From: a virus
Direction: 5' to 3' (one strand)
Virus record (IMG/VR): IMGVR_UViG_3300042197_003137
Span: 1 to 36,818 of that record
Length of the DNA: 36,818 bases
In this document: one piece after another, positions 1 to 23,124 of the stretch
How positions within the stretch are numbered: the stretch's first letter is position 1
How the letters are laid out: the number at the start of each line of letters is the position of its first letter
Made by a program: the position numbers and the translations under genes
The notes under the pieces: model-generated
Seen by the model: only the letters and a program-made list of their open reading frames with translations
What the model was told of the DNA's origin: nothing
Databases searched by the model: none

Positions 1-494
1 TGTGCGATGCGAATGTACTTAGATAGCCCGATAAGTTTGCCAGCGGCAATGATGCCGATGTATGCAACACCAGCAACAGGCTGATGATGATGAGAACACA
101 TACTACGCAACTCACTGCGAACAACCAACATACCCGCATAGCGATCCTCCGTATCATTTGGAAACGCTGTACAATCTGGTGCTGGTTCATATCTTCCTAC
201 CATTATTTCATTAAAGTACATCTTAGCAAGCCTGCGGGCTGTGCCTTTGCTGTTAGGATCGTTTTCTCTATCAATCAACAGGGTGTCTAGCACTTGTTCA
301 AATGCCTCTGTTGCTTCATCGATTAGTTTTTCTATATCACCTTCGTGTAGATAGTCGCTAATGTTATCGCCTGCCCAGAAACGCTTGCCTTCACGCTTCA
401 TCTTAAAGCGAATATGATCGCATAGGTATGCTTCTTGATATCCGCCATCGCCTGCCATTGCGTCCAGGCCTGTTTCTTGTTTTTTTAATTTCAA
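1..494 (-). CDS. folE: GTP cyclohydrolase I (FolE), cut by the window edge
   Basis: The first 164 codons are present and the C-terminus lies beyond base 1. The protein ends here with SELRSMCSHHHQPVAG followed by HIG/GLSK-type text (AYIGIIAAGKLIGLSKY), the zinc-site and active-site block of GTP cyclohydrolase I (family pattern CEHH...GLSK). The enzyme converts GTP to dihydroneopterin triphosphate, the entry to folate and to 7-deazaguanine (queuosine-type) synthesis. The start is TTG at 494: it is preceded by GGAG with about 7 nt spacing, and an in-frame TAA lies just upstream. The next in-frame ATG is 12 codons in and lacks a good ribosome binding site. The gene sits beside a QueD-like protein and a DpdA-like transglycosylase, so a role in DNA base modification is more likely than folate supply. 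The family call is firm; the use of TTG is probable. Confidence 0.88.
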   Translation of the reverse strand, partial: MKLKKQETGLDAMAGDGGYQEAYLCDHIRFKMKREGKRFWAGDNISDYLHEGDIEKLIDEATEAFEQVLDTLLIDRENDPNSKGTARRLAKMYFNEIMVGRYEPAPDCTAFPNDTEDRYAGMLVVRSELRSMCSHHHQPVAGVAYIGIIAAGKLIGLSKYIRIA

Positions 495-1892: not shown

Positions 1893-2354
1893 TTAATATT
1901 TGATAAAACTCCCATTTTCTCCGTCTTCGGAGACCTCAATCCAAATCTCACGATCTGGATATCTTGCTTTGATGACCTCGTACAGTTCGTCCGACATCAT
2001 CTCACAACTTTTATAATCTAATTGGAGTGCAGTGGTTTGTGCCAGTCCAGTTCTATCTTGATTATCGGAAACGGACCGATCACGCAGGACATCGGATCCT
2101 CCGGTCTTGGTATACAGCGACAGGAGCCAACGCTTGAACTGGATGAACTCGATGTCCCGGTCGTTGTGGAACACAGAGATCCACACCCGGAAATGGAAGA
2201 TATGGCGATGAGGATAACCAAGGAACGAAACATCATATTCATCTCCTGTGGCCAGACTAGGATCTGTCAGGGCCGCTGGGTATTTATGTACGCCTTCCTT
2301 CTGGAAGGTTACCCAAATCATTTTATTCGGACGGATGTCTTGTTTTACGATCAT
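1893..2354 (-). CDS. T-fold, 6-pyruvoyl-tetrahydropterin synthase/QueD-like protein
   Basis: This 153-aa protein has a layout that matches QueD/PTPS. A first His sits in a strand (EGVHKYP, H23). A His-x-His pair follows in the next strand (YPHRHIFHFRV, H49 and H51). Then comes an acidic strand-helix segment (DRDIEFIQFKRWL), which corresponds to the 'DF..LK' region. A late Glu-rich strand (EIWIEVSED, about 136-144) matches the pterin-anchoring Glu region. QueD converts dihydroneopterin triphosphate to 6-carboxytetrahydropterin, the step right after FolE. The usual catalytic Cys four residues before His-x-His is absent; the only Cys is C117. It overlaps the upstream gene by 4 nt (ATGA). It could be a divergent QueD or a T-fold relative with another role. 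Confidence 0.5.
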   Translation of the reverse strand: MIVKQDIRPNKMIWVTFQKEGVHKYPAALTDPSLATGDEYDVSFLGYPHRHIFHFRVWISVFHNDRDIEFIQFKRWLLSLYTKTGGSDVLRDRSVSDNQDRTGLAQTTALQLDYKSCEMMSDELYEVIKARYPDREIWIEVSEDGENGSFIKY

Positions 2355-2548
2355 GCTGTTAGAACCTTCGCTAGGGTGTTTAATTCGTCTCGTATCATGA
2401 AGAACTGATAGGTGCTGGTGTTAACGACTTCTCCGTCTTTGAGCTCTTCACCGGTAAATTCGATATTATTTAGGCCATCCGGAAGAAGACAGGGATTTTT
2501 CTTTAGTAAAAGCCTGTATCCAGCGTTTTCTTTAATAATAATTTTCAT
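2351..2548 (-). CDS. Small hypothetical protein
   Basis: This 65-aa protein begins MKIIIKENAGYRLLLKK and ends KVLTA. I recognise no domain. It looks like a small beta-rich cytosolic protein. Its stop overlaps the start of the QueD-like gene in an ATGA arrangement, and it begins 5 nt after the end of the nuclease-like gene. It therefore belongs to the same operon as the modification genes. Confidence 0.5.
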   Translation of the reverse strand: MKIIIKENAGYRLLLKKNPCLLPDGLNNIEFTGEELKDGEVVNTSTYQFFMIRDELNTLAKVLTA

Positions 2549-2553
2549 TGTAA

Positions 2554-3078
2554 TTAATCCTCAAAAAGAGGCGCCTGTCTACTAATAGCCTTGATCTTTT
2601 TCATTTTGTTCCAAGACATACGGTATTTGTAACTATAACCGTTTTCTTTTTCCCAATAACCCCATGAAGCTTTAATATAATCTGGAAAAGTAAACGGATC
2701 GTTATGAAAATGATTTTTTATGTGATCAAAATCTGCTTTGAAAATTTCTTGCAAGACTTTTTTTGTAAAATCAAAAAGTTGTTCATCCACAACTTCGCCT
2801 TCTTTGGTGTAAAACCATTTTTGATATTGTAATTTTTTACAAAGATCGGTTTGATTATAGTCTAATCTTTCAATGTCGTCGACAGAGGATGTTCCCATCG
2901 ATACTCCACTAGTGGCATCTAAATCTCTGGTTTTATACTCTACTCCGGTGATATAATTATCAGGACCTGCGCCATTTTGTAACGGAACTCCTTGTTTTTT
3001 TAAGAGGTCTTCTGCTGATCTCCCAGAAGCCCCGCCCCAAGTATCATTTAGTTTTTTTCCTAGTAAACTGTCATTCAT
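2554..3078 (-). CDS. PD-(D/E)XK nuclease candidate (MvaI/BcnI-like)
   Basis: This 174-aa protein carries GRSAEDLLKK at about residues 19-28 and then PDNYITGVEYK at about 39-49. This gives Asp40, Glu47 and Lys49 in the order of a PD-(D/E)XK active site. An earlier acidic helix (Glu23) and a following segment with MGTSSVDD resemble the arrangement I recall for MvaI/BcnI-type restriction enzymes. The C-terminal half is rich in aromatic residues (YQKWFYTKEGE, WGYWEKENGY) and may read DNA. If active, it would cut DNA inside the cell. Its place beside folE, QueD-like and DpdA-like genes hints that the phage's own DNA is protected by modification. The nuclease motif is visible; the function is inferred and no assayed relative is known to me. 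Confidence 0.45.
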   Translation of the reverse strand: MNDSLLGKKLNDTWGGASGRSAEDLLKKQGVPLQNGAGPDNYITGVEYKTRDLDATSGVSMGTSSVDDIERLDYNQTDLCKKLQYQKWFYTKEGEVVDEQLFDFTKKVLQEIFKADFDHIKNHFHNDPFTFPDYIKASWGYWEKENGYSYKYRMSWNKMKKIKAISRQAPLFED

Positions 3079-3356
3079 CTTAGGCTCTCCATAGTGATGA
3101 TCTTACCAATAGCATCGCCAATATCTTGATCATCAGTGATTATATACATCTTGTTCTCATTGCGATCATTCCTACGATCGTAGTAGCGTGTTTCTATGAC
3201 ATAACCACCCGAGGCGCGATACAGCTGGAATCGCAATCCGTCGCTGCTGAGACTGGCTTCTTCGCAGACGACATTCTGCGGAATGTAGTTTTCATCGTCA
3301 ATATCCTTGTTCAGCCAGTTTCGCAGACGCTGCCGCCAAGATAACTTCTGTTTCAC
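3075..3356 (-). CDS. Conserved small phage protein, unknown function
   Basis: This 93-aa protein starts with GTG at 3356, which forms a GTGA overlap with the stop of a tiny upstream ORF. The sequence has a basic N-terminal helix (MKQKLSWRQRLRNWLNK) and then a beta-rich part with ASGGYVIETRYYDRR and KMYIITDDQDIGDAIGKII. I recall this pattern in small proteins of cyanophages, where it has no assigned role. Its 3' end overlaps the nuclease-like gene by 4 nt. Confidence 0.6.
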   Translation of the reverse strand: MKQKLSWRQRLRNWLNKDIDDENYIPQNVVCEEASLSSDGLRFQLYRASGGYVIETRYYDRRNDRNENKMYIITDDQDIGDAIGKIITMESLR

Positions 3357-3433
3357 TTTTCTCGCCTTTTTACTCTGTTAGAACCCAGTGTCTGTGCCTG
3401 AGTGGCACCTGTTATCGGGTAGTATCCGGTCAT
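3353..3433 (-). CDS. Possible 26-aa peptide, coupled at both ends
   Basis: An ATG at 3433 overlaps the TGA of the upstream gene (ATGA), and the TGA of this ORF overlaps the GTG start of the downstream gene (GTGA). The peptide starts MTGYYPITGATQAQ and ends in a basic tail (NRVKRREK). The double stop-start overlap is the same style used by the real genes here. It may be a genuine mini-gene or only a coupling device that carries ribosomes across the 73-nt gap. No function is suggested. Confidence 0.35.
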   Translation of the reverse strand: MTGYYPITGATQAQTLGSNRVKRREK

Positions 3434-3948
3434 GTTAGCACCTTATCGTTTTTATAGCAATCCCAATCAGTAAAACACTCGCGATCTTTCAGCTTGTGTA
3501 GGCTATGCGTCCACACACCGGGATTGGTCGCTTTAAAGTCTCGGTCATCGATCTTGATCATAGTGTTGTAGTTCCAAAGTTTGATGTAGGGGATTGGAAC
3601 ACGGATCTGCGGAATGAAACGATCGTAGTCGTTGAGACCACCTTCGTTAAACTCTTCTACCTGATTCATAGGAATATCTAGACTACACCAATACCCCTGT
3701 TCTAGGAAATAGGTGATCATTGTTTCCCAACTCTCGTGTTCATCGTAGCCTTCCGGATTGAAACTATGGTTAGCACCAAAGAAGATATGCCGGATATCTT
3801 GGTCTTTGAGAACGTGTTTGATAGTTTCGATAGATTGTCGACCTACTACGAACAAAGTTTTCATTCCATACGCAGGAGTGTGTTCGATCTCGTCACCGAC
3901 GAAGAATGTCACATCATCTTTCTGGCCAGTGCTATAATCTCTATTCAT
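3430..3948 (-). CDS. Conserved T4-like phage protein, unknown function
   Basis: This 172-aa soluble protein has a Rossmann-like beginning: FFVGDEIEHTPAYG, then MKTLFVVGR, then IRHIFFGANHSF. The second half holds FIPQIRVPIPYIKLWNYN and TNPGVWTHSLHKL, which I recall from hypothetical proteins in cyanophages. No catalytic motif is clear. It lies between the DpdA-like gene and the nuclease-like gene and overlaps its upstream neighbour by one base (TAATG). It could be an accessory factor of the modification block; that is context only. Confidence 0.6.
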   Translation of the reverse strand: MNRDYSTGQKDDVTFFVGDEIEHTPAYGMKTLFVVGRQSIETIKHVLKDQDIRHIFFGANHSFNPEGYDEHESWETMITYFLEQGYWCSLDIPMNQVEEFNEGGLNDYDRFIPQIRVPIPYIKLWNYNTMIKIDDRDFKATNPGVWTHSLHKLKDRECFTDWDCYKNDKVLT

Positions 3949-4381: not shown

Positions 4382-5923
4382 TTAGTCCGCTTTGAGTTTG
4401 TCTAGTTCATCATCTTCTCTGTCATCCGTCCAAGGTACTGCTAGTTCACCGTCTTCTTTGATTTCATCAAAAAGGCTGTTCATGATATTAGTGACTCCAC
4501 CTCGCAGTCTAGCACCTTCTAGATTTTGTAGGAATCCCAACCTTTCTGCTTCTGCGATCATTTCAAATGCAGATGCTCGATCTTTGCAGTCGAATAGTTC
4601 TTCCACGAATCGATCGAAGTAAAGAATATTACGAGGAACCCATTCTGAGAACTCGTCGCTCTTGTCAGCATCTTTTACTTTCCTCCAACGCCTCCAATCT
4701 GGACGATAGGTCTTTGTTTCAATATCTGCGAGATTGTTTGCTCTCTGCACGGCAACGATATGGCAGTAGACATTATGTGCCATCATCAGCGCATACCCAT
4801 AACTGTCCCACGATGTTTTACCTTCTTTGCCGATCTTGTTCAGCATTCCTGGTGCATAATGGCATATGTCAGCGATGCTGAGACGTCGTCCAATCTCGCT
4901 TTCGAATGGGAAAGGAATATCGTGCCGTCCGGCAAGCATCTTATTATCTGGGGCTTTGTCCATGATAACTGAAAATCGCTTATTGGTATGTTGGGCATTA
5001 GTATAGACAAGCCCGTGGGCTGTGGCGATGAAAGGTGATGCGCAATCAAAACTGATGGTGAAATTCTCATTTACATGCTTCCTTATCTGACGTTGAATGC
5101 TGGTTAAGTAACAACTCCAGTCTAATTGTGCTGTTCCGAGGAAGTGCATCCAATCCTTGCCATCAAGCATGCCATCAAAGCGCATGGTAATCAGTCTGCG
5201 AAGCGTAATAGGCATCTTGCACATATTAGCACCACCCATAGCCCAGCCTTCGCAGGCTTTGTCACCCCACTTACTGGGATCTGAATATTCCTTGACACCC
5301 TGATACCACGTTTCTGCGTTTTCCCAGTTTGAACCCTGTAAAACGTTCAAGAACTTAGTAGCACCTAATCTATTATTTAAGAAATATTCGTTGTTAAAGC
5401 GAGTTTTCGTCAAGCAGTCATCGAACGATTTTAGGCCGGTTTTAGGGCTGTGTATATGGTCGCAGGCCCATGTAGGCACGTCTAGCAACATACTCCAGTC
5501 CGCAGTGAGCTCTAACCAGTTAAGAATATCATCTCTAGTCTTGTTTGCAGCCGGTCCTTCGAAGTTTAGCCAATCAAACTTGAGCACACCTTTACCTACT
5601 TGATATCCACCGGAATCACCTAGGATCAATGTCTTAGATCTATCACGCTGTTGGATCATAGCGTCTTGATCCATCGTCTTATTAAGATCTAGCTGGGCAT
5701 GACCTGCAGAGAACAGACCATATTTGTAGTAAAAATAGCCCTGCTCTGGATTGAGAAAGTTCATTCCTTCTACACCTTGATCGAATCCTTTGGGAATACG
5801 ATCTTTGGGGATGAATTCTTGCTTACGTTGTTTAGCAACATAATCAGAATAGAAAGCACTGATCGCTGGCAAATATACCGCATAATCTTTCTGTAGTGGT
5901 GTTAAATCGACTGGTGTTTTCAT
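4382..5923 (-). CDS. dpdA: DpdA-like DNA 7-deazaguanine transglycosylase (TGT fold)
   Basis: This 513-aa protein keeps the landmarks of tRNA-guanine transglycosylase. LGDSGGYQ at about 101-108 matches the (T/G)DSGG(F/Y)Q block with the general Asp. LQG at about 195, GWAMGG at 226-231 and FLGT at 261 match 'VQGG', 'G.AIGG' and 'L.G.G'. SFDCASP at about 291-297 holds the nucleophile Asp (D293; TGT 'FDC'). The canonical CxCxxC zinc motif of bacterial TGT is not seen, and the C-terminus is extended. Phage DpdA proteins exchange guanine in DNA for a 7-deazaguanine. Start ATG 5923 overlaps the stop of the clamp gene (TAATG). With folE and a QueD-like gene nearby, action on DNA is more likely than on tRNA. 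Confidence 0.75.
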   Translation of the reverse strand: MKTPVDLTPLQKDYAVYLPAISAFYSDYVAKQRKQEFIPKDRIPKGFDQGVEGMNFLNPEQGYFYYKYGLFSAGHAQLDLNKTMDQDAMIQQRDRSKTLILGDSGGYQVGKGVLKFDWLNFEGPAANKTRDDILNWLELTADWSMLLDVPTWACDHIHSPKTGLKSFDDCLTKTRFNNEYFLNNRLGATKFLNVLQGSNWENAETWYQGVKEYSDPSKWGDKACEGWAMGGANMCKMPITLRRLITMRFDGMLDGKDWMHFLGTAQLDWSCYLTSIQRQIRKHVNENFTISFDCASPFIATAHGLVYTNAQHTNKRFSVIMDKAPDNKMLAGRHDIPFPFESEIGRRLSIADICHYAPGMLNKIGKEGKTSWDSYGYALMMAHNVYCHIVAVQRANNLADIETKTYRPDWRRWRKVKDADKSDEFSEWVPRNILYFDRFVEELFDCKDRASAFEMIAEAERLGFLQNLEGARLRGGVTNIMNSLFDEIKEDGELAVPWTDDREDDELDKLKAD

Positions 5924-6660
5924 TAGACTGCCTGTGCAGGAATGATATACTTGTAGGTAGCCAAGCCGCTGTCAAGAGTGATCTGGATAGCACCTTCATC
6001 GCTCAATGCCATCTTGGTGTTATTGACATCAGCGATCTTAAGGATGCTTAAGATTGACAGCACGGGCCAAGTCCAGCCACGCTGTAGTTTGCCTTCTACA
6101 CCCATAGCGAACACAAACTCTCCACCATGTGTGGAAGCGTCGCCGAAGATGAACTTAAGATTACCGCTGTCTGTCTTGGCAAGAAATGTTGGATGCTCGT
6201 TGTTGGCTCCTGCTTGAAAGTTGAAACGCTGTACTGCAGCCACAGTAGGCTCGATCTCTACATCCCACCTGACACCACGGAACTTGACGGTCTTCATCTT
6301 TTCGTTGATAATTTCGCTGTTCATAAAGCGGTAATCGTTACGAAAGTCACCGTCTTTGTTTTCGAAATGGATGCCAACTGGAATAATTTCACCGTTACGT
6401 TCTGCTGATGTGATAGTGATTTTAGCATCATCTTTGTATTCACCACCGTCTAGCAAATATTTTAATTTATTAAGTTGAGGCATACCGAACACACCGATCA
6501 TGTCCGGATAGGGATTATGTGTGTTGGCTTCCATTATTACGGATCGATCGTCAGCGATCGAAAAAACACCAGTGGAATCTTTAGTGCCTGTGATTTTAAC
6601 TGTGGTTAAAAAGCCTAGATTTTGTGTGTGGCTTACGATGTCCTGGAGAATATCTTTCAT
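5923..6660 (-). CDS. gp45: DNA polymerase sliding clamp (gp45)
   Basis: This 245-aa protein is close to the 228 aa of T4 gp45. It starts MKDILQDIVSHTQNLGF and contains GIHFENKDGDFRNDYRFM and FIFGDASTHGGEFVFAMG, a beta-rich pattern matching the gp45 clamp fold of T4-like phages. A trimeric clamp holds gp43 on DNA and, in T4, also activates late transcription. It sits between the polymerase gene and the DpdA-like gene and starts after AAAGGAAAA. A TCTAAATA box lies 25 nt upstream, so it can be transcribed apart from the polymerase, as expected if it is needed late. Confidence 0.9.
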   Translation of the reverse strand: MKDILQDIVSHTQNLGFLTTVKITGTKDSTGVFSIADDRSVIMEANTHNPYPDMIGVFGMPQLNKLKYLLDGGEYKDDAKITITSAERNGEIIPVGIHFENKDGDFRNDYRFMNSEIINEKMKTVKFRGVRWDVEIEPTVAAVQRFNFQAGANNEHPTFLAKTDSGNLKFIFGDASTHGGEFVFAMGVEGKLQRGWTWPVLSILSILKIADVNNTKMALSDEGAIQITLDSGLATYKYIIPAQAV

Positions 6661-6717: not shown

Positions 6718-9387
6718 TCACTCAAAATCAAACAGTTTGCTGAATGTGTTATCCGACCTTGTTGAACTGATGTCCCATTCCAAGACACCAATAAGGTTTT
6801 CTAGCTTTTCGTCAATGACAGTGGTTTCCATTTCGCCATCGTCGAAAGGCAGATCTTTGAACCATTGCGGCAGTCTCAGTTCATCCACAGGATATGCCAC
6901 TGAGGTATAGCCCATAGGATTGTCTTTGACCTTGCAGACAATGACTTTAGCACCATCTACGATGTTCATGGAATACTTGTCATCCATCATGCGCTTTAAA
7001 GTGTTCCAGTTTAGACTGGCTCGAACGTGTCCTGGCATATTAGCCTTGCCCTGTTTCTTTTCCTTGGCAGCATACTCTGTGATATTATTGGCTCTTTTAG
7101 GACTACCTTTCTCCCATCCCGGACGAGTCTTAAATTCCGTGCGGAAATCCGTGATATATTCCAACACTTCTTCTTTTTTCGCTCCAGCCAACACCATTTC
7201 TAGCACTTTGCTTAAAAAATCTTGGATGACCACCGGAGTATCTGACCTCTTAAGGTCTAGACCCATGGCTTTTATTTTTCCTGTTTTACCATCAACATCG
7301 GTACGCTTGCCTTCTTTGTCGTAGTAGAGGACTGCGTATCGCTTCTTGGTGATGAATAGTCCTTTGCTTGCAACAATCTCGCGACCTGCCTTGATGACCT
7401 CTCCTCGAGTTTTGGGAGTATGGAAGGCGTCTTGCATGAACTTAACAAACGTGCCATTTACTTCTTCTCCTATGGTATCGTAAAGTTCGATAACTGATTC
7501 CTTAGACCAAGGAAGGTTGCCTTTCTCAATGTCCTTCTTTAGCGTAGTATACGCAGAGAAGTAACAAGAGTCTGTATCACCGTAGATAACAGCACGACCT
7601 ACGTGATCATATTCTCCGGTAATAATTTCGTTAACCTTAGCAGCCATGTGCCGAGCGACAGTACGGCCAGTTAACGTAGTTGATTGTCCAATGCGGTTAT
7701 CGAAAAAACGGCAACCGGGATTAAGAATAGCGCCATACAAACTGTTTAAGTTAATTTTCTTAACCAACTGTCTTTTGTCCCAATATTCTTCTTCGATCTT
7801 GTTTCCGGCAGCGATACATTCTTTAAGTTTTTCCTGCATCTCTTTTCGTTCTTTGTACCAACGTGCTAGGAGTCCAGGGATAATACCTTCCTTCTCATAG
7901 GTGAAAATAGTACCATTGGCTGACAGCATCCACGGTTGATTACTATCAAATATTAAATCGTAAATCTGTGCGGCGCTTAACGTGTCGTTTCCGCCGTTCT
8001 CCCAATCTATAGTGATTTCTCTTCCAACTTCTCTATCCACGACACTGGTATATTCTACACTACCGAACATTCCTTCCCAAGCTGCGGCAAATGATTTTCC
8101 TTTGGCCTGTTCTGCTGCGATATAATCTTTAGTACCATCTTGGCGCAACTGTCCGACGATGGTCTCTGGACCCATATTCAAGGCACGAATCGCTGACGGA
8201 TACAGAGAGTTAATGTCTAATGAACCGATCCATTCATGGATACCTTTCTTGGGATAAGCAACATAAGCACCTGCTGCCTGTGTATCACCTTGTTCTTCCA
8301 TCTTCTTACGATTAGGAACGATCATACCACGACGATGTGCTTCGTTGATAATAGCCTGTTCAGTTACCGCCACAGCGCCCATAGTAGTCTGTAACAACAC
8401 GGTACAATCGTGAGCCAATTTATTAGATAAATCGAGAAATTTTAATTTCTTATCTAACTTATTCAACAAAGCACAATCTTGACGATTATATTCGATGAAT
8501 TTACGAAAATCATTGTTGTATAGTTGATCCAAGGAACCTTCATAGATAGTCTTGGATTCTCCTATTTCCATCTCTCCGATCGCATCTAGTCTGTAAGTAT
8601 GTCGCTCTTCATAGGTGTATTTCCTGTACATCTCTAGGCTGTCTAAATGTACCCTTCCTATGAGGTCATAGGTTACTGCAGTTTTACCAAATTTTTCATA
8701 TTCTCGTTTTTTGGGGTACTGATTCCACAAACAAAATCTACGAGTATCTTCCTTGCTTAAGACTTTAGTTACACGATTGACAGTATACGGAATATCAAAA
8801 CCTTCCGAGTTCCAGCCGCTTAACACATCTGCATCTTCGATAAGATGAAGAAAACTATCTAACATGTCTGCTTCGTTATCGAATAGCATGGTGTTAGGGA
8901 ATTCTTCTACGGCCCGCTTGGCCTCTTCCATGCTTAGTGTTTTAGGAGGTATAGCGAGGCATATTAAAGTGTCTAACCATTGTAGATGGATCGCGATGGC
9001 AGTGATGGGCATGAAAGCATCGTCCGGAGCGGCATAGCCACGTTCGGGATCAAAATCCACCTCGATATCGAAAAACGCTACATTTAGACTAGGAGCATCT
9101 GCATTTAGATAATGATCTTCTAGACATCTATAAATCGGATTTATATCCGATTCATACAATCGCTTGTTAGAATGTATGGCCAGTTCCTTGCGATGTTCCT
9201 TGACATTCTTGCTAGAAACTCTGCTTAAAGGTTCACCCTTGATTGATTGATACTTACCTTTGGGATCGTAATAGTAAAAGATGTGTCGGGCAGCGTAATC
9301 TTTATAGTGCCTTTCACCTTTGTCATTGCGCTCAACGACACGGATCATGTCGTCGTCGCGATCATAGAATGCGTCAACGTAACTCAT
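6718..9387 (-). CDS. gp43: Family B DNA polymerase (gp43)
   Basis: This 889-aa replicative polymerase has a 3'-5' exonuclease. Exo I is FFDIEVDFD (about 105-113), Exo II is GWNSEGFDIPY (about 191-201) and Exo III is YNRQD (about 300-304). Polymerase motif A is SLDINSLYPS (about 389-398), motif B is KKINLNSLYG (about 543-552) and motif C is YGDTDS (about 602-607), followed by KKRYA. All catalytic acids are present, so both activities should work. I chose the ATG at 9387 (MSYVDAFYDRDDD) rather than 9417, because GGAGG lies just before it and related phage polymerases begin with this sequence. It is transcribed with the dsbA-like and membrane protein genes upstream and the clamp downstream. Confidence 0.95.
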   Translation of the reverse strand: MSYVDAFYDRDDDMIRVVERNDKGERHYKDYAARHIFYYYDPKGKYQSIKGEPLSRVSSKNVKEHRKELAIHSNKRLYESDINPIYRCLEDHYLNADAPSLNVAFFDIEVDFDPERGYAAPDDAFMPITAIAIHLQWLDTLICLAIPPKTLSMEEAKRAVEEFPNTMLFDNEADMLDSFLHLIEDADVLSGWNSEGFDIPYTVNRVTKVLSKEDTRRFCLWNQYPKKREYEKFGKTAVTYDLIGRVHLDSLEMYRKYTYEERHTYRLDAIGEMEIGESKTIYEGSLDQLYNNDFRKFIEYNRQDCALLNKLDKKLKFLDLSNKLAHDCTVLLQTTMGAVAVTEQAIINEAHRRGMIVPNRKKMEEQGDTQAAGAYVAYPKKGIHEWIGSLDINSLYPSAIRALNMGPETIVGQLRQDGTKDYIAAEQAKGKSFAAAWEGMFGSVEYTSVVDREVGREITIDWENGGNDTLSAAQIYDLIFDSNQPWMLSANGTIFTYEKEGIIPGLLARWYKERKEMQEKLKECIAAGNKIEEEYWDKRQLVKKINLNSLYGAILNPGCRFFDNRIGQSTTLTGRTVARHMAAKVNEIITGEYDHVGRAVIYGDTDSCYFSAYTTLKKDIEKGNLPWSKESVIELYDTIGEEVNGTFVKFMQDAFHTPKTRGEVIKAGREIVASKGLFITKKRYAVLYYDKEGKRTDVDGKTGKIKAMGLDLKRSDTPVVIQDFLSKVLEMVLAGAKKEEVLEYITDFRTEFKTRPGWEKGSPKRANNITEYAAKEKKQGKANMPGHVRASLNWNTLKRMMDDKYSMNIVDGAKVIVCKVKDNPMGYTSVAYPVDELRLPQWFKDLPFDDGEMETTVIDEKLENLIGVLEWDISSTRSDNTFSKLFDFE

Positions 9388-9398
9388 ATTCCTCCATA

Positions 9399-9416
9399 TG
9401 CGATTTGTGGCTCGCA
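9399..9416 (-). promoter_or_regulatory. Small hairpin before the polymerase ribosome binding site
   Basis: On the minus strand TGCGA and TCGCA pair around an 8-nt loop (GCCACAAA), ending a few bases before the GGAGG of the polymerase gene. T4 and RB69 gp43 repress their own mRNA by binding a hairpin at this place. The stem here is short (5 bp), so an operator role is only a possibility. Confidence 0.25.
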
Positions 9417-9465
9417 AATACCTCTAGCGCGGTTTATGGCCCCGCCTACCATCTATGCTTATTTA

Positions 9466-13175: not shown

Positions 13176-13246
13176 GCCGGCGAGTAAGGATTTCTAGGAA
13201 GGTCGTATCCGTCGTCTTCGGGATAGACGGGGTAATCGTTAGACAC
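13172..13246 (-). CDS. Possible 24-aa peptide between the IscA-like and LysM-GH19 genes
   Basis: A GTG at 13246 is preceded by GGGAG with 8 nt spacing and overlaps the end of the IscA-like gene. The ORF ends in a TGA that overlaps the ATG at 13175 (ATGA). The peptide contains [19 protein letters not shown], which is acidic and Pro/Tyr-rich. The gene after it has no ribosome binding site of its own, so this ORF may exist to deliver ribosomes to it. Confidence 0.4.
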
Positions 13247-13565
13247 TGAAACTGCTCCCGCAACCGCAGGTAGTCTGTGCGTTGGGATTTTTAATCACGA
13301 ACTGGCTGCCCTGTAGATCATCTTTGTAATCTATTTCTGCACCCTGCAGGTATTGCATGCTCATAGAATCTATGACCATCTTCCACTGTCCGTCTAATGG
13401 AAATTCGAAATCATCATCGTTCTTATCTTCATCGAAGGTAAATCCGTATTGGAAACCTGAACACCCGCCACCTTGCACGAAAGTCCTTAATTTTAATCCG
13501 GGATTGTTTTCTTCAGAAAGAAGATCGATGATTTTTTCTTTAGCGTTATCGGTAATTTCGATCAT
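13239..13565 (-). CDS. IscA/ErpA/HesB-type Fe-S carrier
   Basis: This 108-aa protein has the three cysteines of A-type carriers: C35 in [12 protein letters not shown] and C100/C102 in TTCGCGSSF. Length and layout match IscA/SufA. Such proteins take up [2Fe-2S] or [4Fe-4S] clusters and pass them to apo-enzymes. HesB-like genes are known in marine phages, where the client is unsure. It overlaps the gene before it (ATGA at 13562) and lies in the middle of the cargo-like block, but it has no targeting-like N-terminus ([12 protein letters not shown]), so it probably acts in the cytosol. Confidence 0.9.
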
Positions 13566-18809: not shown

Positions 18810-19481
18810 TTATTTATCGGATAATATATATTCATATATCCTTCCTAGAACTTCTGAATTCCTCATGTGTAAAAACAGCAGCGTTTTATGATCTTCTACT
18901 AAAATATATCTAGGATCCCAATTCCAATCAGTGGCAATGAACCAATTTTTGACCGCTTGAGATATTAGAACGTTATTTTGAGTTTCTAACCAATCGATAT
19001 AAATTTTTTTGGCCGATTTATCACCCTGCATCTTGTGCGGTTTGAGGTAGATGCGATATCTGTAACGATCGTGGGGTAATTTTTTGCAAAGTATGTGATG
19101 AATATCCTCGTATTCATCCTTTCTAGAAATGTCTGGCTCGCTGACCAAACACAATATGTGTCGGAATCTGTTAACAAGATAATTGTGAATTTTTGGATCA
19201 TTCGTATAGAGGTCTATATTATCTCTTTCGATCCTTTTGTACCAATCATTTGCGCTTAAAGATTTGAGATACTGACACAAATTAGTCATATCTTCTTTGT
19301 TAGCAAAGGCTTTTTTATAATAATGATATCTAGTATGGTCATCTGAGAAACATTTATTCAATAACTCGATGGCATCATCTAATGAATTCGCACGGAGAAT
19401 GGCCACACCGGGAATCTTTAGTGTGGCCTTATACAGCCATTTTCCATAAAACTTTTTCTTGGTGATATTATGTTTATGCAT
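18810..19481 (-). CDS. Hypothetical protein downstream of clpA
   Basis: This 223-aa basic protein starts MHKHNITKKKFYGKWLYK. It is rich in Tyr, His and Lys, with a C-terminal block HKTLLFLHMRNSEVLGRIY. No known domain is recognised. It overlaps the ClpA-like gene by 8 nt, so it is translated after it and could be an adaptor or partner; that is only from position. It may bind nucleic acid, given its charge. Confidence 0.5.
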   Translation of the reverse strand: MHKHNITKKKFYGKWLYKATLKIPGVAILRANSLDDAIELLNKCFSDDHTRYHYYKKAFANKEDMTNLCQYLKSLSANDWYKRIERDNIDLYTNDPKIHNYLVNRFRHILCLVSEPDISRKDEYEDIHHILCKKLPHDRYRYRIYLKPHKMQGDKSAKKIYIDWLETQNNVLISQAVKNWFIATDWNWDPRYILVEDHKTLLFLHMRNSEVLGRIYEYILSDK

Positions 19482-21798
19482 CTTCGATTTTTTCTTCCAT
19501 CACTAAAGGAGATCCTCTCTTTAATAATTTTTTCTGTTGTTTTGTTAACGGTTTCGCCCGTACAGTGACGGTAAAAGTGATTTCTTCTCCAGATAGTTGG
19601 ATGTGTATATTTCCGCCGTCGACGAGATCGCCAAACAGAACCCTTCTACTCAACGGTGATTTTATTTTATTATCGATCAATCTGGCTAACGGTCTGGCTC
19701 CCATTTTTCGATCATATCCGTTTTTTGCCAACCATTTAACAGAATTATCATCTGCTACTATTTCAATATTCTTGTCTCTAAGTTGGAAGTTTAAATCGTT
19801 GATAAATTTATGTACGATTTTTTCTACAGTTTCGATGTTTAATCTACCAAATTTCACTACAGCATCTAGTCGATTGCGAAATTCCGGAGCAAAAAACTTT
19901 TTAATAGCTTTATCATCTTCTCCTTCGCGCTCAAGTTCGCCGAACCCGATGGTGTTGTTTTCGTTGTCTCGAGCACCTAAGTTGCTGGTCATGATAAGGA
20001 TACAGTTGCGACCATCGGCCTGTTTGCCATTCGATCCTGTGACGAAACCGTTATCCATAAACTGCAGCAAGATGTTAGAAACATCAGGATGGCTTTTTTC
20101 GATTTCATCTAGCAGCAACACACAATTGGGATGTTCTTGTAATTTAGTGATCAGTTGACCGGAATTATCTTCGTATCCTACATAGCCCGGTGGAGCACCG
20201 ATCAGACGAGCCACCGAGTGTTTTTCTTGGTACTCGCTCATGTCGAATCGAACTAATTGCATTCCCATCTTTTCTGCTAATTGTTTGGCAGTTTCAGTTT
20301 TTCCACAGCCAGTAGGTCCTAGGAATAGAAAACTTCCAACAGGTTTGTTAGGTGATTTCATTCCTGCTTGGCTGACGAATATTTTATCTAGCAGTGTATC
20401 AATAGCTCCATCTTGACCCAAAACTGATGATTTCATATTTCCTTCTAGATCAGAAAGATTTTTGCTTTCTTTCTGAGCAACAATCTCTAATGGCATGTTG
20501 ATCATCTTACTGAGTTCGTAGGTAACCTGTTCTATATCTACGATCTGTTCTACACCTTCCATATTTTCGTCATCTTTAAGTTTATATCGAGCCGCTGCGC
20601 AGTCTAAGATATCTATGGCTTTATCTGGCAGTTTTTTATCTGACATGTATTTCACAGAAAGTTTCACAGCCTGATCTATAGCGGCATCGGTGATTTTTAC
20701 TTCATGATGTTTTTCATAATACTTTTTCAATCCTTTTAAGATTTTAATAGTTAGTTCTTCATTGGGTTCATCGATGGTCACACGCTGGAAACGACGCATC
20801 AAAGCACGGTCTTTTTCAAAGTGCTTTCGATATTCTTCCCAGGTAGTGGACGCTATGATTTTCATAGACTTTTTGGTCAATATGGGTTTTAGCATATTGC
20901 TCATATCGTTGCTTGATTGGTTAGCGGCCCCTGCACCCTGCATCATGTGTGCTTCGTCGATGAATAAAATGATCTTACCTTTTTTTTCTAGTGCGGTGAA
21001 TACGGCTTTAATTCGTTCTTCAAAGTCACCACGATACTTTGATCCGGCCAACAATGCTGATATATCTAAAGTATAGACTGTATGGTCTTTGATAAATTTA
21101 GGAACCTTGTCCTCGAAAATCTTTCGAGCCAACCCTTCTGCGATCGCAGTCTTGCCTACTCCGGGTTCTCCTACCATTAACACATTGCATTTATTTCTAC
21201 GTGCTAGAATCAGTTGGATTTTTTCTAATTCTTCGTCTCGTCCTATCACCGGATCAATCTTACGTTGTTTAGCCTGTAAGGTTAGGTTCGTGCAGAATTG
21301 ATTTAGAATTCTTTCTATCTGATTGTTCGTGGTCGCTGGAATACTTTCTTGTTCTTCTTCTATGATAACATTTTCTTGGAAATATTTCACAAATTTTTCT
21401 TTAGTCAGACCGCCTTTGTTTAGAAAATAATAACCAAAACTGTTTTTTTCAGCCAGTACACTGATAATAACGTCTGCGATCTCCATGCGTTGCCTGCCGC
21501 TGAACAAAACCTGTGTAAAACATCGATTCAACACACGTTCAACACTAGTGGTTTTTTTAGGTTTCTTTACCTGAGATTGTGAGATGATTTCTTTGAGGTT
21601 ATTTTTTAGATAGTGATCTAGATTGGTCTTAATAAAATTAGCATCGGCCCCAAAGTTAGAAATCATGTCATACGATTCTTGATCACTCATGATGCTATAG
21701 ACTAGATGTTCTATAGTGATGTACTCATGATTTAACTGCTTGGCTATTTCAACGGCGGTATTGAAGATATTATGCAGGTGCTGGCTGGGCTCTATCAT
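19474..21798 (-). CDS. clpA: ClpA-type AAA+ unfoldase
   Basis: This 774-aa protein has the full size of E. coli ClpA (758 aa). Residues 1-140 form the Clp N domain (QHLHNIFNTAVEIAKQLN, ITIEHLVYSIM). The first ATPase has GEPGVGKT (about 210-217) and FIDEAH (about 279-284); the second has GPTGCGKT (about 494-501) and LLLDEIEKSH. An IGF tripeptide at about 617-619 sits where ClpA and ClpX carry the loop that docks on ClpP. No middle coiled coil of ClpB is present. The phage protein probably uses host ClpP to degrade chosen proteins. It overlaps the stop of the deformylase gene (TAATG) and is followed by an unknown gene, so the operon is dnaJ-def-clpA-unknown. Confidence 0.92.
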   Translation of the reverse strand: MIEPSQHLHNIFNTAVEIAKQLNHEYITIEHLVYSIMSDQESYDMISNFGADANFIKTNLDHYLKNNLKEIISQSQVKKPKKTTSVERVLNRCFTQVLFSGRQRMEIADVIISVLAEKNSFGYYFLNKGGLTKEKFVKYFQENVIIEEEQESIPATTNNQIERILNQFCTNLTLQAKQRKIDPVIGRDEELEKIQLILARRNKCNVLMVGEPGVGKTAIAEGLARKIFEDKVPKFIKDHTVYTLDISALLAGSKYRGDFEERIKAVFTALEKKGKIILFIDEAHMMQGAGAANQSSNDMSNMLKPILTKKSMKIIASTTWEEYRKHFEKDRALMRRFQRVTIDEPNEELTIKILKGLKKYYEKHHEVKITDAAIDQAVKLSVKYMSDKKLPDKAIDILDCAAARYKLKDDENMEGVEQIVDIEQVTYELSKMINMPLEIVAQKESKNLSDLEGNMKSSVLGQDGAIDTLLDKIFVSQAGMKSPNKPVGSFLFLGPTGCGKTETAKQLAEKMGMQLVRFDMSEYQEKHSVARLIGAPPGYVGYEDNSGQLITKLQEHPNCVLLLDEIEKSHPDVSNILLQFMDNGFVTGSNGKQADGRNCILIMTSNLGARDNENNTIGFGELEREGEDDKAIKKFFAPEFRNRLDAVVKFGRLNIETVEKIVHKFINDLNFQLRDKNIEIVADDNSVKWLAKNGYDRKMGARPLARLIDNKIKSPLSRRVLFGDLVDGGNIHIQLSGEEITFTVTVRAKPLTKQQKKLLKRGSPLVMEEKIEDA

Positions 21799-22292
21799 TA
21801 TTTTTGTTTCCTTAGTTTTTGTATTGCTAATTTTAACTTCAAGGGACTAACGATGTCAACGAAACATATACCATTGAGATGATCAAATTCGTGCTGAAAG
21901 CATCTAGAAATTAATCCGTCCATTTCTGCTTCTATGATGTCTCCTCGACTGTTCTGGTACTCCACTATTATTTTTTTTGGCCTTTTTACATTCAACCAAA
22001 GTCCAGGGAAACTCAGACATCCTTCTTTGAAGATTTCTTTTTCTTGATCTGTGCTGATTATTTTTGGATTGAAAACTGCGAAGGGTTTAGGAAATCCCGG
22101 AATATTATCGCTGCCCATGACAAAAATTTGTTTAGCAATACCTATTTGATTAGCGGCTAAACCTATACCCATATGTTTCTGCATAAAATAACATAGATCA
22201 GATTCTAATTTTTCAGAATCACCGTCTCTAGAAAAATCCCAAGAAGTGCTTACTTGTTGAAGGCTTTGATGCGGTCCTAGTTTATAATCCAT
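21798..22292 (-). CDS. def: Peptide deformylase
   Basis: In this 164-aa protein the three motifs of deformylase are intact: GIGLAANQ (42-49), EGCLS (90-94, metal ligand C92) and QHEFDH (133-138, metal ligands H134 and H138 with Glu135). It removes the formyl group from new proteins. Phage deformylases are usually short, like this one. It overlaps the dnaJ-like gene by 11 nt and ends in a TAATG overlap with clpA. Expression with a chaperone and an unfoldase suggests a role at the ribosome exit during phage protein synthesis. Confidence 0.95.
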
Positions 22293-23124
22293 TTTTCAAT
22301 TGTTCTACGAGATCTTTTTGTTTAGTTGATGTAATTTTTGGTATTTTAATTTTTATTTTTACTAAAAGATTACCTCTTAACTTGCTACGCATATTTGGCA
22401 ATCCTTCGTTTCTGCAACTTAATACTGTTTCGGGCTGGCTACCTGCCGGTACAGCGATTTCTAATGACTTGTTGTCTAGTGTAGAAATATCTATTTTTGT
22501 TCCTAACATGGCATCCCATGCTGAGATGAATTTTTCTAGTATTAGATTATCGCCTTCTCGTCGAAACATTCCGTGCGGCATGATTCTAACATTAACTATT
22601 AAATCTCCGGGAGGTATGTTAGAAATGGTATTATCTCCCATTCCTTGATATCTTATCTGTTGTCCTTCTTCTATTCCAGACGGTATCACAATATTAATAA
22701 TCTTTTTCCTTCCTCCAGGTATGGCTATTTCTGCATCGAGATTTTTACCTTGTAAGACATCTTCTAATGTAAGATCCACCATGAGGCTGATAGTTTTGTT
22801 TCTTTGAACATGTCTGTGTCCGAATCCGCCAAATCCGAATCCACCAAATATATCATCAAAATTGTTAGCATTGAAATGAAACTCGAAAGGACCGTTTTGT
22901 CCGAATCCATTACCTTGCGGTTGGCTCTTGGGATCTATACCCATGTCTACCATCTGTTTTTTTTGAGGATCACTTAAGATTTCATAGGCTTCCGAAATCT
23001 GTTTAAATTTTTTCTCATCTCCACCGCGATCAGGATGATGGTTCATGGCCATCTTGCGATACGCTTTTTTAATTTCGTCTTGGGTGGCGTTTCTATTAAC
23101 ACCTAAAGTAGAGTAATAGTCCAT
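22282..23124 (-). CDS. dnaJ: DnaJ/CbpA-type co-chaperone (no zinc finger)
   Basis: In this 280-aa protein the J domain (1-65) has [20 protein letters not shown] and the HPD tripeptide in HHPDRGGD, needed to stimulate DnaK. A Gly/Phe-rich region (about 85-115, [11 protein letters not shown]) is followed by two C-terminal substrate domains ([24 protein letters not shown]). The CxxCxGxG zinc repeats of full DnaJ are absent, which places it in the CbpA class. It would guide clients to host DnaK, perhaps capsid proteins or initiator complexes. It is the first gene of the proteostasis operon, after a terminator at 23137-23168. Confidence 0.92.

Follow-up and report, generated by a model that had tools for sequence, protein, structure and literature searches.

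The question raised by this locus is whether a phage that appears to modify the guanines of its own DNA also carries a nuclease directed against DNA without the modification. The window, by which we mean the whole stretch of 36,818 nucleotides analysed here, is a 36.8-kb virus record and probably a fragment. An ORF near its left end, here called NUC, had been put forward in a preliminary description as a PD-(D/E)XK nuclease candidate inside a DNA modification block. The sole locus that we found to be near-identical to NUC lies on a second contig, L001. The genes considered below are the following.

1..494, minus strand: FolE (GTP cyclohydrolase I; E 1e-38), cut by the window edge, with a full copy in L001
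529..1632, minus strand: glycosyltransferase-like block gene, conserved; its PA5oct homologue matches the glycosyltransferase phrog_4356 (E 0.002)
1893..2354, minus strand: QueD-like gene, phrog_17812 (unknown function), with conserved PHRHxFxF and RDxEF motifs
2351..2548, minus strand: orf65, a small variable-slot gene in the interval between NUC and the QueD-like gene
2554..3078, minus strand: NUC, 174 aa, ATG start, a predicted MutH-type PD-(D/E)XK nuclease with predicted catalytic residues E23, D40, E47, K49 and K82 and the C-terminal tail QAPLFED
3075..3356, minus strand: orf93, a small variable-slot gene
3430..3948, minus strand: orf172, a conserved block gene of unassigned function; in most relatives NUC begins right after its stop
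4382..5923, minus strand: DpdA-like DNA base-exchange enzyme (tRNA-guanine transglycosylase type), 513 aa, with the TGT motifs DSGGYQ and FDCASP
5923..6660, minus strand: orf245, probable sliding clamp, phrog_12062
6718..9417, minus strand: family B DNA polymerase with the C-terminal tail NTFSKLFDFE, of clamp-binding type

The DNA modification block proposed for this region is real, as indicated by the DpdA-like and FolE genes. The DpdA-like protein aligns with E. coli Tgt in hhalign (E 0.0012) and has homologues in PA5oct, Vibrio 2.275.O and Phosso, while no match to it was found in Pfam or among PDB sequences. The name of the putative QueD-like gene comes from its position and histidine motifs only, and searches of Pfam and PDB gave no confirmation of QueD. 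It lies two genes from NUC, as had been described, with a single small ORF (orf65) intervening. In most of the 80 DpdA-like loci closest to the window the common order is polymerase, orf245, DpdA, orf172, QueD-like gene, glycosyltransferase-like gene and FolE. PA5oct-type jumbo phages have a similar gene set with the addition of QueE, which is also present in relatives; no NUC was found in PA5oct itself. QueC was absent from 14 of the 15 contigs examined, which may be incomplete; the final base may therefore not be a preQ0 product. Downstream of FolE, L001 carries an ORF resembling HhH-GPD (MutY/Nth-like) DNA glycosylases (L001:9459-9869), as do several related loci. Elsewhere in the window we noted, by eye, an ORF resembling IscA/HesB-type iron-sulfur carriers (13239-13565, ending in CGCGSSF) and, consecutively at 19474-23124, genes for a ClpA/B-type ATPase, a peptide deformylase and a DnaJ-like protein.

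The translation of NUC bears out the active-site residues first proposed for it, since the stretch PDNYITGVEYK comprises P39, D40, E47 and K49. A search of the window for the spaced motif G-x3-E-x15-PD-x4-G-x-E-x-K gave a single match, and 100 dinucleotide shuffles gave none. The start of the gene shares 4 bp with the end of orf93, and orf65 and then the QueD-like gene follow downstream. Used as a query, NUC gave nothing convincing in Pfam, PHROGs, NCBIfam, PADLOC, PDB sequences, phages, plasmids or genome contigs. Tblastn matches in Aeromonas and Rhizobium were rejected as a serine hydroxymethyltransferase and a transposase-type ORF, and an initial DNA-motif scan for relatives returned, besides NUC itself, chance matches only.

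Relatives were obtained with a degenerate DNA pattern of the spaced motif, which gave about 11 distinct ORFs of about 190 aa each from uncultured viruses. An alignment of these ORFs was used for a second scan, based on two conserved stretches outside the catalytic motif, and this yielded 52 loci, which include repeat assemblies of the same viruses and encode 34 unique proteins. No member was found among the isolate phages searched, and a scan of genome contigs with the family profile, as a single pattern, found no relative. A profile built from the relatives with NUC left out matches NUC at E 4e-39 (Z = 1e6), and the same profile gives at most 7.8 bits against 1000 shuffles. The three residues named in the preliminary description are kept by the homologues: across 33 distinct relatives, E47 and K49 are present in 33/33 and D40 in 32/33, while E23 is present in 31/33. 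About one third of the relatives were recovered through the motif, so that catalytic conservation is there by construction; the remaining relatives are free of that bias. Further invariant positions are K82, Q86, D103, Q110, E143, R153, R51 and S57. At position 88 NUC has tryptophan where 33/33 relatives have arginine, and this change at an otherwise invariant position means that the window copy could be altered. Judged by the profile libraries searched, in which it is uncatalogued, the NUC family is new.

Structure prediction, which had been suggested as a check, gives NUC a nuclease fold. The AlphaFold model made with the alignment has a pLDDT of 89.9 and a pTM of 0.84 (single-sequence folding was uninformative, with a pLDDT of 41), and the top three Foldseek matches to it are all MutH (E 7e-5). 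In VIA-align the model scores Z = 13.2 with MutH, 10.9 with Sau3AI, 8.8 with MvaI and 8.4 with BcnI, while nucleases outside this group reach at most 6.3 (PvuII and HincII). The MvaI/BcnI-like character first ascribed to the lead-in sequence thus holds at the level of fold, with MutH and Sau3AI being nearer, and a Pfam search with NUC gave no MvaI/BcnI family match. Alignment to E. coli MutH with hhalign (E 4.4e-4) pairs the catalytic D70, E77, K79 and K116 with D40, E47, K49 and K82 of NUC. Six of eight relatives match the Pfam MutH family (PF02976) below the cut-off, with a best E of 0.0023, and NUC itself does not match it; the one plasmid protein that a relative matched in tblastn, weakly, is annotated as a MutH/Sau3AI family endonuclease. 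The predicted fold and the conserved D40, E47 and K49 together suggest that NUC belongs to a new family of MutH-type PD-(D/E)XK nucleases. On the basis of the model this assignment is well supported at the level of fold, and orthology to MutH is not implied.

NUC resembles E. coli MutH in fold over the whole length and in the catalytic set, but the two are only 11-14% identical, and NUC is phage-borne and located in a deazaguanine block. Sau3AI is similar in fold and in the restriction role proposed here for NUC; it has two MutH-type domains where NUC has one, and for NUC the proposed partner is not a methyltransferase but DpdA. MvaI and BcnI share the single-domain MutH-like fold, but are further from NUC than MutH is (13-19% identity).

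The most likely, and the most economical, reading is that NUC and DpdA form a restriction pair. We infer that DpdA, with the FolE, QueD-like and QueE enzymes, would mark the phage DNA with a 7-deazaguanine derivative, and that NUC would recognise a short guanine-containing sequence, cutting or nicking it when the guanines are ordinary and sparing it when they are deazaguanine. Unmarked DNA would then be attacked, the most useful targets being the host chromosome or rival phages and plasmids, and NUC would be an optional addition to a widespread modification block. That NUC is an active MutH-type endonuclease of this kind, cutting or nicking DNA without the phage 7-deazaguanine as the optional restriction half of the block, is given a rough probability of 0.45. 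T4 endonuclease II is a GIY-YIG nuclease that acts on unmodified host DNA. T4 is similar in that the phage DNA is spared through base modification while the host DNA is attacked, but its chemistry is at cytosine and not at guanine. Guanine 7-deaza modifications block many restriction enzymes (PMC6884629, PMC5567051), and the phage deazaguanine pathways have been described as protective (PMC6884629). For phage 9g, modification of plasmid DNA by a DpdA pathway in an E. coli laboratory strain has been published (PMC6884629). Bacterial dpd islands couple 7-deazaguanine in DNA to restriction of unmodified DNA (reviewed in PMC12904381). These islands and the phage DpdA pathways have 7-deazaguanine insertion in common with what is predicted for the present block, and among the papers found none reports a MutH-type nuclease in the phage pathways. 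In the open-access literature we found no paper linking MutH-type nucleases with phage deazaguanine.

Strong genomic evidence for this pairing comes from the distribution of the NUC family, which was assembled independently of DpdA. A DpdA homologue is present in 18 of 21 long NUC-family contigs. Among all 52 loci, 40 have a DpdA-like gene and 44 have any block gene, and in 36 NUC starts no more than 50 bp from the orf172 stop. Blocks that have no NUC are common, and NUC without block genes is rare (L183, L191 and L195). Such one-way co-occurrence would follow from a cutter that depends on the protective mark and a mark that does not depend on the cutter, although the same asymmetry would also arise from confinement to one phage group. 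The family is mostly found in one broad phage group, and the linkage may come partly from shared ancestry and from recombination through the flanking genes. A comparison of distance matrices between NUC and the block genes was discarded as noisy, the agreement being poor even among the block genes. In one lineage (L194:5593-10639), where no DpdA was found, a NUC relative comes immediately after three DNA methyltransferase-like genes in tandem and a further, truncated one; its position beside genes for another modification is counted in favour of a nuclease-modification pairing. On such sequence comparisons, a NUC-modification link is supported that is firmer than a single sequence could reveal. 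Of the self/non-self pair built from deazaguanine chemistry that the preliminary description had envisaged, the association stands, as the family is largely confined to DpdA-type blocks and mostly to one conserved position; the clamp-type tail and the sporadic slot occupancy described below also permit other roles.

Avoided palindromes were examined as a possible pointer to the recognition sequence. AGCT occurs 24 times in the window against 116 expected, but it is likewise rare in L004, which lacks an intact NUC, and in several NUC-free phages. Neither GATC nor the other 4-bp palindromes showed an avoidance that sets NUC-bearing phages apart, and palindrome avoidance was weaker in NUC-bearing phages than in others. 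As no avoidance distinguishes them, no recognition site is indicated, and this line was dropped. Many related phages are nearly or fully without one 4-bp palindrome (AGCT, CATG, GTAC or TGCA), which varies between relatives; palindrome-poor phages include the window, L018, L020, L054, L063, L174 and L299, and L063 has no CATG where 61 are expected.

NUC is only sporadically present in the slot between orf172 and the QueD-like gene. Among fully covered slots, it occupies 1 of 72 in the clade resembling the window and 8 of 68 in an L162-like clade; that the closest clade is almost entirely without NUC counts against the restriction pair. In L004, whose DpdA is 99% identical to that of the window, orf93 and NUC have apparently been lost by deletion between CAGGC repeats, and the final NUC codons (QAPLFED) are kept. 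L188, with a DpdA 91% identical, has in the same slot a NUC that is only about 30% identical to that of the window. L252 is a sibling of L228, which carries NUC; in L252 an HNH nuclease gene lies between the same flanks (L252:9636-10043), with the junction near common LFEE codons. GIY-YIG-like genes, recognised by eye and with no clear Pfam match, are found in the slot of L299 and immediately before orf172 in L235 and L269. Homologues of the L252 HNH nuclease were also seen in L009, L063 and L304. The use of the slot by these other nuclease genes is counted in favour of the restriction pair as well as of the homing alternative that follows.

This pattern makes a selfish gene of homing type a serious rival, in which the slot would be a landing site and NUC would spread by cutting empty alleles without any role in modification. 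Sporadic NUC genes, intact empty sites and the use of the slot by HNH and GIY-YIG-like genes, which are typical of homing, all fit such an element, as do the divergent L188 copy, the L004 deletion and the GC content of the NUC DNA (35% against 44-46% in the neighbouring genes). To our knowledge, however, no MutH-type enzyme is known to act in homing. The catalytic set and the slot are kept even between phages that have diverged widely, the start codons often overlapping or lying nearly adjacent, and L194 pairs NUC with methyltransferases instead, which also argues against homing. We consider it an unlikely explanation, though the best placed of the alternatives.

The C-terminal tail points in another direction. 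In these phages the C-terminus of the polymerase is a TFxxLFEF-like peptide. The T4 polymerase, gp43, has a similar end, by which it binds the clamp gp45 (PMC3012046). A tail of the form [FYW]xx[LIM]F was found in 100 of 105 polymerases, in 19 of 31 NUC-family proteins and in 15 of 2164 background ORFs (Fisher 1e-29, uncorrected for relatedness), and several of the 15 background matches are other block nucleases. The window tail QAPLFED is a looser match, without the aromatic residue at -4. In the AlphaFold model the tail is poorly ordered. A Vibrio homologue of orf245 matches phrog_223, a DNA polymerase processivity factor (E 6.7e-5), and orf245 is on this ground a probable sliding clamp; hhalign to T4 gp45 and searches of Pfam and PDB sequences gave no support for a clamp. 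The polymerase-like tail hints that NUC is tethered to the replication clamp of the phage itself, and such docking is put forward as a hypothesis from the tail sequences. Some DpdA-like proteins (L165, L204, L304 and L280) also end like the polymerases (TFDSLFEV, NFMDLFE), as if clamp-bound.

A clamp-binding-like tail points to replicating phage DNA and not to host DNA, and it is counted against the restriction pair. NUC could instead be a clamp-tethered reader of newly made phage strands, nicking those not yet modified by DpdA for repair, processing or late transcription, in the way that MutH acts on hemimethylated GATC. The tail in 19 of the 31 family members, its poor order in the model, the T4 precedent and MutH as the closest fold favour such a function, but the window tail lacks the -4 aromatic residue, the clamp identity of orf245 comes from one PHROG match to a homologue, and the HNH and GIY-YIG genes of the same slot are unlike strand readers. 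We regard it as unlikely, and rank it after homing. Least probable is a general accessory repair or recombination nuclease in a dense early-gene block with coincidental modification neighbours, which the adjoining polymerase and clamp genes and the three loci without block genes would allow, but which fits poorly with block genes at 44 of the 52 loci, mostly at one exact position.

It is tempting to speculate further that the 7-deazaguanine mark is read by an exchangeable nuclease module, of MutH, HNH or GIY-YIG type, that is docked on the phage clamp and would couple replication, marking and surveillance. This broader proposal is doubtful at present; if true, the module would be, within a single viral block, the guanine-based equivalent of both methyl-directed repair and restriction.

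On the restriction-pair reading, the direct prediction is that NUC cuts ordinary DNA and spares DpdA-modified DNA. Unrelated nucleases swapping in one slot would make the evolution of self/non-self recognition testable in large phages. The recurrence of the NUC family in the block would suggest that some phages not only make the mark but also read it. If so, the 7-deazaguanine pathway would be offensive or replication-coupled, beyond a shield against host restriction.
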